A stretch of 64,000 bases of DNA from contig NZ_JAGIOD010000002.1 of assembly GCF_017876545.1 (NCBI RefSeq), positions 806,001-870,000 of the forward strand, in the 5' to 3' direction. The position numbers and the translations under genes were made by a program. Source of the DNA: Brachybacterium sacelli (lineage in GTDB: Bacteria > Actinomycetota > Actinomycetes > Actinomycetales > Dermabacteraceae). Positions 56,537 to 59,470 of this stretch are shown one piece after another. How positions within the stretch are numbered: the stretch's first letter is position 1; the number at the start of each line of letters is the position of its first letter. Below the pieces are notes generated by a model that saw only the letters and a list, made by a program, of their open reading frames with translations, was not told where the DNA came from and did not search any database.

Positions 56537-56865
56537 GGCATCCTCCCGAGCTCACCGTGGGCCACCTCACGGTATCCCCGCGCGGCGCGTTTGACCATGG
56601 GTAGACCAGGCGCGGTCCGAGCCGGCGCCGGGCGGGGGCCGGCCCTGGCCCGCCACCAGGGCATGATCAGATCCGCGGATGTCGTCGCTCGATCGCCGTG
56701 CGGTGATCTCGCGCTCGGCGCATCGGGCCGACTGCGAGATCCGTGCAGGAGCACTGACGCGGTGAGGGAGACTGCATCCCCGCACGACGCACGAGGCGAG
56801 TACCCACGCAGAAAGTCCTGAGCCGCGGCATCGTCTGTCGACGATGCCGCGGCTCAGGACGTCGG
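56537..56865. other. Region between the oxidase gene and tRNA-His
   Basis: About 330 bases with no gene. On the minus strand TGGTC-N6-TGGTC (about 56589-56606) and GTGAGG/CCTCAC-like repeats near 56555-56575 are candidate regulatory elements for the oxidase. The right end holds the tRNA terminator listed separately. Confidence 0.45.
56815..56860 (-). terminator. 21-bp hairpin terminator of tRNA-His
   Basis: A perfect 21-bp stem (GTCCTGAGCCGCGGCATCGT and mirror) with TGTC loop, 6 bases beyond the tRNA 3' end. Confidence 0.88.
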
Positions 56866-56939
56866 GGTGATCGACGGGATTTGAACCCGCGACCGCCTGG
56901 ACCACAACCAGGAGCTCTACCAACTGAGCTACGACCACC
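56866..56939 (-). tRNA. tRNA-His (anticodon GUG)
   Basis: Acceptor GTGGTCG pairs with CGATCAC, with an extra G at -1 opposite discriminator C as expected for tRNA-His. The anticodon loop is TTGTGGT and the T-loop GGTTCAAATCC. CCA is not encoded. Confidence 0.96.
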
Positions 56940-57485: not shown

Positions 57486-59387
57486 TCAGAGGTCCTGGTC
57501 GAGCAGCCCGTCGCGCAGTGCCGCCGCCAGGGTCGGAGTCACCGGCAGGCGCGGGATGAGCGTCGCCTGGAAGGCGTGGTAGATGTCCGGCTTGCCCGGC
57601 CAGGTCACGCCCTGCGGCTCGTTGTCGGCGTCGAGCTCGTGGAACCAGGAGCCGGTCCCGGGGTCCAACAGGTAGGTGGAGATGTACTCCCACCACTGCT
57701 CGTAGCGTTCGGCCCACACCCGCTCCCCGGTCACCTGGTGCATCACTGCGGCCGCACCGACGGCCTCGGCGGCGACCCAGTGCATGCGCTCACGCGCCAC
57801 GGGGGTGCCGTCCCAGTCCACGGTGTAGGCGAAGCCGGGTGCACCGTCGGCCCCGAAGGTGGCCGCGGCCTTCTCCATCAGCGCGGTGGCCGCCTCGAGC
57901 ATCCACTCCGGGGCCTCGCCCTCGACCGAGATCAGCGCGGCCCGGCCGTGCAGCACCAGGCGCGCCCACTCGATCCAGTGCCCGATCGTGGCGCCGTAGG
58001 GGCGGAACGGGTGAGTGGGCTCGTCGCGGTTGTACTCCAGCAGCGGGTTCCAGTCGGTGTCGAAGTGCTCGGGAAGGGCCCAATCGTTGCCGCGGGCGAA
58101 CTCGTCGATCGCGCGGGTCATGATCCCCACCGCGCGATCGAGCCAGCGGCGCTGCCCGGTCACGTCGGCGGCGGCCAGCAGCGCTTCGACCGTGTGCATG
58201 TTGGCGTTGATCCCGCGATACTCCTCGCAGGTGGAGAAGGCGCGATCGAAGGTGTCGACGCTCATGCCGGCGTCCTCGTCGAAGAACTTCTCATCCAGCA
58301 CCGTCAATGCCTCTTCGAGCAGCTCCGCGGCTCCCGGTCGGCCCGCGGCGAGCGCCGAGGAGGCGGCGAGCACCACGAAGGCGTGCGCGTAGGCCTGCTT
58401 CGAGTCGTCGACCGGCTGGCCCGCCGCGACCGAGGCGAACCAGCCGCCGTGCTCCTGATCGAGGAACACCCCGCGCAGCGAGGCGATGCCGTGATCGGCG
58501 AAGCGGCCGAAGTCCGGACGTCCCAGCAGGTGGCCGAGCGCGAAGCTGTGCGTCATCCGGCAGGTGATCCACAGCTCCGAGGGGCGTGAGAGATCCGGGG
58601 CGCCGTTCTCGTCGAGCCAGGCGAAGCCGCCATCGGCCCGGACGGACTCGGAGCCGAACACGAGCAGCTCGTCCCCCTCGCCCTCGAGCCAGCGGCGGTG
58701 TGAGGCGCGATCGAGCCAGGGCACGTGCGGAGCCGGGGCCGGGGTGCTGCCCACGGGCGTCGCCTCCGGGGCGAGCTCGAAGGTGCGCGAGGCAGCCTGC
58801 GCCTGGGCGGTGGTGGGCCCGGGCTCGGTGACCAGCAGCACCTCGCGGTAGTACTTCAGCTCCTGGATGGACTCCTGGATGTCGGCCAGCGCACGGTGGC
58901 CGCCGTGCTTGGCGGGGATGTTGTAGTACACCCGCGGGAACCAGCGCTTGGCGAGCTCCTTGAGGCTGGAGACGTCGATGGTGCGGTAGGACAGCCAGCT
59001 CGCGAACTCGGGGACGTCGCGGTCCAGGAACACCCGGTCGGTGCCCACGCTGTTGCCCGCGAGGGGGGCCTTTCCCGGCTCGGGGCAGAACTCGCGCACG
59101 TAGGCCAGGCACTGCTCCTGCGCCTGCTCGAGGGTCATGCCCCCGTCGAGCTCCTCGAGGAGGCCGGAGACGGTGTGCATGTTGACCACGAAGGGGTCCA
59201 TGCCCTCCAGCGACTCCGCCGGCGGCTTGATGACGACGTCGACACCGTCACCCAGGATGTTCAGATCGGCGTCGGTCACGAGCACGGCGATCTCGACGAG
59301 CGCGTCACGCTGTTTGTCGAGGCCGGTCATCTCGCAGTCGACCCAGATGATGCGGTCGTTGAGGGCGCGGGAGGAGCTGGAAGTCAC
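57486..59387 (-). CDS. Oligoribonuclease-AGE (sugar isomerase) fusion protein
   Basis: 633 residues in one uninterrupted frame. Residues 1-200 are a complete Orn: IIWVDCEMTGLD (Asp17, Glu19), GNSVGTDRVFLD and GGHRALADIQESIQELKYYR. An Ala/Pro-rich linker (about 200-221) leads to a full AGE-superfamily (alpha/alpha)6-barrel: ITCRMTHSFALG (Arg), GINANMHTVEALL (His), GHWIEWARL (Glu) and KPDIYHAFQATLIPR (His), the residue set of mannose isomerase/YihS-type enzymes. The GTG at 59387 has TACTGT 6 bases upstream. A GTG codon at the AGE boundary (58724) has no ribosome-binding site. The fusion appears genuine and I know of no described example. Confidence 0.92.
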   Translation of the reverse strand: MTSSSSRALNDRIIWVDCEMTGLDKQRDALVEIAVLVTDADLNILGDGVDVVIKPPAESLEGMDPFVVNMHTVSGLLEELDGGMTLEQAQEQCLAYVREFCPEPGKAPLAGNSVGTDRVFLDRDVPEFASWLSYRTIDVSSLKELAKRWFPRVYYNIPAKHGGHRALADIQESIQELKYYREVLLVTEPGPTTAQAQAASRTFELAPEATPVGSTPAPAPHVPWLDRASHRRWLEGEGDELLVFGSESVRADGGFAWLDENGAPDLSRPSELWITCRMTHSFALGHLLGRPDFGRFADHGIASLRGVFLDQEHGGWFASVAAGQPVDDSKQAYAHAFVVLAASSALAAGRPGAAELLEEALTVLDEKFFDEDAGMSVDTFDRAFSTCEEYRGINANMHTVEALLAAADVTGQRRWLDRAVGIMTRAIDEFARGNDWALPEHFDTDWNPLLEYNRDEPTHPFRPYGATIGHWIEWARLVLHGRAALISVEGEAPEWMLEAATALMEKAAATFGADGAPGFAYTVDWDGTPVARERMHWVAAEAVGAAAVMHQVTGERVWAERYEQWWEYISTYLLDPGTGSWFHELDADNEPQGVTWPGKPDIYHAFQATLIPRLPVTPTLAAALRDGLLDQDL

Positions 59388-59393
59388 CGGACC

Positions 59394-59399
59394 ACAGTA
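59394..59399 (-). promoter_or_regulatory. -10 element of the leaderless Orn-AGE gene
   Basis: TACTGT on the minus strand, 6 bases before the GTG at 59387, with no Shine-Dalgarno. Confidence 0.5.
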
Positions 59400-59470
59400 T
59401 CGCGGGAACACGGCCACGGTTCCGGAGCTCGCTCGTGGCGGCCGAGGGCGCTGGTGCTGAGTTGTGTCGG

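Follow-up and report, generated by a model that had tools for sequence, protein, structure and literature searches.

A conserved fusion of oligoribonuclease with a YihS-type isomerase in Brachybacterium, probably a tether between two ordinary enzymes

In a 64,000-nucleotide stretch of the Brachybacterium sacelli genome (contig NZ_JAGIOD010000002.1, positions 806,001 to 870,000; hereafter the window), a single gene joins an oligoribonuclease (Orn) to an isomerase of the AGE superfamily. The gene (57486..59387, minus strand) is one open frame of 633 codons, running from a GTG start at 59387 to a TGA stop; it has known orthologues and a predicted product of ~70 kDa. Pfam assigns RNase_T to residues 14–176 (E 3.2e-23) and GlcNAc_2-epim to residues 253–608 (E 1.1e-111), and these matches, with the NCBIfam ones given below, bear out the proposal of a first-pass annotation, made from the letters of the window, that the frame encodes a genuine Orn–AGE fusion. 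The domain fusion is real and conserved, the route by which it arose can be retraced for the most part, and mechanistically it is most likely a pair of ordinary enzymes on a single string. We consider it probable that the two enzymes are independent in function, tethered to each other, and inherited from a coupled pair of neighboring genes.

How common is this architecture, and could it be spurious? In 47 genomes of the family Dermabacteraceae (38 from the genus Brachybacterium and 9 others), the junction between the domains was stop-free and in frame in 37 of the 38 genus genomes, 34 of which span both domains. The fusions of G016 and G032 end at contig ends, that of G027 breaks later within the isomerase, and the sole exception in the genus, an 88% complete genome (G026), gave no match. 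Outside the genus, one of the nine family genomes, Helcobacillus (G043; locus L037), is fused. A sequencing or assembly artefact that joined two genes has a negligible probability and was ruled out, because the same fusion recurs in these 37 genomes and across 47 further proteins of 600 amino acids (aa) or longer; a frameshift at the linker, which the first-pass annotation had raised as a worry, is countered by the same open junctions. Both halves are also under purifying selection, with ratios of nonsynonymous to synonymous substitution rates (dN/dS) over eight comparisons of 0.10–0.14 for Orn and 0.09–0.20 for the isomerase. The comparisons with L005 and L064 yield identical values, and these two probably represent one gene.

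Public protein databases hold the architecture as “oligoribonuclease” with both Pfam domains. Our protein-database searches took in the best 120 of ~8000 scored candidates each, and among the matches listed every organism-named, full-length, two-domain protein came from Brachybacterium or Helcobacillus. Full-text literature searches, judged by titles and abstract openings and in one case covering 10 of 192 hits, returned no description of an Orn–AGE fusion, and in the papers searched the pairing has no precedent, in line with the first-pass annotation; the sequence is already in databases, and the fusion is apparently undescribed in the literature. A seemingly unfused isomerase record of 412 aa from B. 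sillae (P0055) was rejected as a counter-example, since DNA with a 99.8% match to it (L045) carries the in-frame fusion. The isolated isomerase in that record probably reflects a choice of start codon, and such choices may hide the fusion.

Orn is a widely conserved housekeeping nuclease. Its domain in the fusion (residues 10–190; 58818..59360, minus strand) gives a full-length match to NCBIfam oligoribonuclease NF003765, at 244.7 bits against a cut-off of 106. The DEDDh residues are D17, E19, D117, H164, and D169. Across 48 fused proteins of 600 aa or more (that of the window plus the 47 others), the latter three are invariant in all, and D17 and E19 in all 42 records that reach them; the six records that fall short probably have wrong starts or come from cut contigs. 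Two of these six (P0040 and P0046) begin at MTGLD and would drop two catalytic residues. In V. cholerae Orn, according to an excerpt of eLife 46313, the phosphate cap is formed by S108, Y129, R130, and S135, and the wedge by L18. The fusion has S113, Y134, R135, S140, and L23 in these roles, invariant in 48/48, and differs in having F66 (48/48) where V. cholerae Orn has the stacking residue W61. We predict that the Orn half should clear diribonucleotides (nanoRNA).

The closest solved relatives of this half are the actinobacterial Orn proteins of Blastococcus (9f7m) and Mycobacterium smegmatis (7wik), which share with it the whole domain, the DEDDh residues, and the phosphate cap at 52–54% identity in the fold match. 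Unlike the solved Orn chains found, all stand-alone, the fusion continues into a second enzyme. In a fold search, the N-terminal part of the predicted model gave TM-scores (template modeling scores) of 0.76–0.90 to Orn structures, in some cases with large root-mean-square deviations (rmsd), which were 7.0–7.5 to 9f7m and 7wik. The window's genome also carries a second, divergent Orn-family gene (L047:1114-1668, minus strand; G000 contig C2, ~1707184-1707873), 37% identical, which scores 126.6 bits against the NCBIfam oligoribonuclease cut-off of 106 and shows DEDDh-like residues by eye. Among the matches listed for the 47 family genomes, only G044 shows a similar additional Orn match.

The C-terminal half (residues 223–625; 57513..58721, minus strand) is a YihS-type isomerase domain of the AGE superfamily. 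Its YihS-type active-site histidines, H398, H470, and H604, are invariant in all 48 fused proteins; they were matched to YihS by alignment, in a YihS numbering that we partly assume. R277, R462, and E473 are listed beside them as residues that we take to belong to the isomerase site. Three active-site histidines are the criterion of the YihS subfamily in an excerpt of PMC7762179. As the first-pass annotation had judged, both active sites of the fusion look intact, with catalytic residues invariant wherever the records reach them. The barrel of the predicted model matched chains of 7ag4, 2zbl, 2afa, and 2rgk with TM-scores of 0.94–0.97 by target length, and the rmsd of the YihS fold matches was 1.2–1.4 in 8 of 10 rows and ~4 in two. 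Like the YihS proteins of E. coli (2rgk) and Salmonella (2afa, 2zbl, and 7ag4), the domain has the whole barrel and the three histidines, at 43–45% identity; unlike them, it is joined to Orn and has H and P at the positions of YihS Q362 and Q379.

These two positions bear on the substrate. Some database names make the isomerase half a sulfoquinovose (SQ) isomerase: this is the JGI name of record P0035, and the top structural match is indeed the SQ isomerase of Salmonella, at 43–44% identity and with target-length TM-scores reaching 0.97. However, the two YihS glutamines, which we take to be sulfonate-binding, are replaced in the query by H583 and P600, invariant in a 20-row alignment, which makes SQ unlikely as the substrate, and we give this assignment little credence. 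The best NCBIfam match of the domain, covering nearly the whole model, is D-mannose isomerase NF051846, at 480.5 bits; the Helcobacillus fusion reaches 445.3 bits and the unfused isomerases of L036 and L038 reach 499.4 and 507.9, all below the cut-off of 600. The solved D-mannose isomerase 5x32 is more distant, with only 27–29% identity in the fold match. The likeliest substrate predicted from these comparisons is a free neutral sugar such as mannose/fructose. The domain is the single AGE match in the window's genome. Elsewhere in the genus, G016 has a second AGE-type frame on another contig (L046). It shares 47–49% identity with the barrel of the query, and the retrieved stretch gave no Orn match.

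Where does the protein begin, and is it made as one chain? A predicted −10 element, TACTGT (59394..59399, minus strand), stands 6 nt before the GTG at 59387, as expected for a predicted leaderless transcript. Of 44 family loci, 43 (36/36 fused and 7/8 unfused) have a TANNNT box 5–8 nt ahead of an in-frame start close to residue 1, and in 34 of those 43 the spacing is exactly 6 nt, against an upstream background of 16 in 10340 positions. The scan left some latitude in start and spacing, and many of the loci are close kin. This layout is that of leaderless genes in Mycobacterium tuberculosis, according to an excerpt of PMC3898074. It supports the start at 59387, the one chosen in the first-pass annotation, over an upstream in-frame GTG at 59417 (a 643-aa open reading frame), which is less likely given the conserved box; orn is predicted to start at a leaderless GTG. 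By eye, the box followed by a start is also visible before orn in several outgroup loci (L159-L173, uncounted), and leaderless orn may be a wider trait.

The two domains are separated by an Ala/Pro-rich linker (residues 200–222; 58722..58790, minus strand) of varying length. Pooled linkers are 24% Ala and 17% Pro, and mean identity to the query across the 47 other fused proteins is 39% in the linker versus 86% in Orn and 81% in the barrel. An AlphaFold2 model of the fusion, built from a 20-sequence alignment, has a mean predicted local distance difference test (pLDDT) score of 86.4 and a predicted TM-score (pTM) of 0.66, and leaves the relative placing of the domains unfixed. The barrel is modeled confidently and Orn less so (residues 156–163 have pLDDT <50), and pLDDT is likewise <50 at linker residues 205–219.

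Internal initiation in the linker, or cleavage, could still yield two proteins from the one frame, the fusion then being mainly a device for coupled expression. Such a reading draws on a GGAGG-8 nt-GTG site at residue 212 in this strain (58752..58767, minus strand) and on the P0055 record of an isomerase alone, with the reservation about its fused DNA given above. The site is not conserved: of 36 distinct linkers, just two, this strain's included, have a motif of at least 5 bases ahead of an in-frame start in the linker proper (8 further hits, at the first codon of the scanned stretch and inside the Orn part, were left uncounted), and no internal start is conserved among the 36. The unfused relatives, by contrast, have a Shine-Dalgarno-like stretch before the isomerase in 8/8 cases by eye. 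We therefore find two separate products unlikely. The leaderless Orn start and the lack of a conserved linker start lead us to predict a single polypeptide of ~70 kDa, with some internal initiation possible in this strain.

How did the two genes come together? Eight family genomes outside the genus have orn and the isomerase gene separate but close. In Devriesea, a genus labeled g2 (perhaps Dermabacter), and the other family members concerned, the two genes have the same order and strand as in the fusion, but the pairs are split by a stop codon, plus a frame change in 6/8. Stop and start overlap in ATGA (L034) and GTGA (L038), and L036 reads TGATATG; in L039 and L040, TAG is followed by a start a few nucleotides on; and in L032, L033, and L035, TAG or TAA precedes AGGAG and ATG. 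Beyond the family, we drew on an order-wide sample of 149 genomes, 138 of them outside the family, counting isomerase matches down to E ~1e-77. At least 75 of the 138 have the isomerase among the matches listed, and 74 of these also show Orn, with the two genes close together in 0/74 among the matches listed. There, 24 gene pairs share a contig, the nearest 257 kb apart among the matches listed, and the rest lie on different contigs, for which a neighborhood across contig ends cannot be strictly excluded.

The position of tRNA-His suggests what changed. In the window, the tRNA-His gene (56864..56938, minus strand) lies downstream of the fusion; most of the outgroup loci that we looked at have it directly after orn. 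Specifically, it falls within ~320 bases of the Orn-match end in 13 of 15 outgroup loci, hand-picked from the same order, and on the same strand in 11. In the family, 13 of the 16 loci examined have it after the isomerase gene, up to ~2.3 kb off; in Helcobacillus (L037), it is downstream on the opposite strand, and none was present in the stretch examined of L057, L034, and L032. These outgroup and family positions are explained most simply if the isomerase gene became lodged between orn and tRNA-His in the family's ancestor.

Did the fusion form once or twice? We compared trees of RpoB (19 family genomes and 5 outgroups), AGE (22 family rows and 5 outgroups), and Orn (22 rows), in all of which two changes of the fused label are needed. 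Two of the trees join Helcobacillus to the unfused g2, RpoB with support of 100/100 and AGE with 100/97. In the RpoB tree, this pair sits inside Brachybacterium with modest support (91/82 and 81/69), for which one fusion and a later split is simplest; the AGE tree places the pair outside Brachybacterium, for which two fusions is simplest. Support in the Orn tree is weak, and a single change is all that its well-supported branches demand. The trees disagree, and either two fusions or one fusion with a later split would account for the present distribution.

We propose that the gene encodes one polypeptide in which an N-terminal Orn would degrade diribonucleotides (nanoRNA) and, across a flexible linker, a C-terminal YihS-type aldose-ketose isomerase would act on a free neutral sugar, e.g., mannose/fructose. 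In the ancestor of Dermabacteraceae, the isomerase gene would first have landed between orn and tRNA-His; the pair would then have drawn so close that translation was probably coupled; and loss of the orn stop, with adjustment of the frame, would have produced the fusion, either on two occasions, in Brachybacterium and in Helcobacillus, or on a single one, after which g2 split the gene again. The benefit would be co-expression at a fixed ratio, not catalytic cross-talk. Co-expression was one of the explanations offered in the first-pass annotation, and it is the one that we prefer. The variable linker and the unfused neighbors favor two independent activities.

Alternatively, the domains could cooperate, with the isomerase controlling Orn (through oligomerization, location, or a sugar- or nucleotide-responsive switch) and so tying nanoRNA turnover to carbon supply. 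The retention of the fusion in 37/38 genus genomes speaks for this, as would a recurring benefit if, as is simplest for the AGE tree, the fusion arose twice. Cooperation nevertheless sits poorly with a linker that varies in length and sequence, with eight relatives in which the pair is unfused, and with the absence of close pairs from the 74 non-family genomes compared, among the matches listed; on the RpoB tree, moreover, the tether can be lost. Nor do signaling enzymes help. GGDEF or EAL domains matched in 0/5 genus genomes (the window's and four congeners) in a search that did not extend to other c-di-GMP domains; in 14 control genomes, GGDEF matched in 8 and EAL in 6, and among ten family genomes searched only G044 has both. 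The connection to c-di-GMP turnover drawn in the first-pass annotation, and with it a c-di-GMP role for the fusion, is unsupported. Overall, we judge cooperation rather improbable. A more specific version, in which the isomerase domain modulates or localizes Orn (or the reverse) as a selected nanoRNA–sugar link without recognizable c-di-GMP enzymes, perhaps evolved twice, seems to us slightly less probable still.

Several observations weigh against our preferred account of two independent, tethered enzymes from a formerly coupled pair. Retention of the fusion across a genus may point beyond co-expression; the isomerase falls short of the curated D-mannose isomerase cut-off (480.5 vs 600); the GGAGG-GTG in this strain's linker could give some separate isomerase; and, with a second Orn-like gene in the genome, the fusion need not be the sole Orn. 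In g2, tRNA-His is not a simple neighbor: none lies in a longer stretch of G040 (L174), and that of G041 (L175) is ~1 kb away on the opposite strand.

As we read it, the locus clearly illustrates how a gene can relocate, pair closely with a neighbor, and fuse to it, and one small family still contains the separate, the overlapping, and the fused state. It offers a simple test case of whether gene fusions imply functional links, as neighborhood history alone may explain the Orn–AGE pairing. Finally, against viral structures, the fold search was uninformative: the Orn part matched exonucleases, and there were a few weak glycosidase-like hits.
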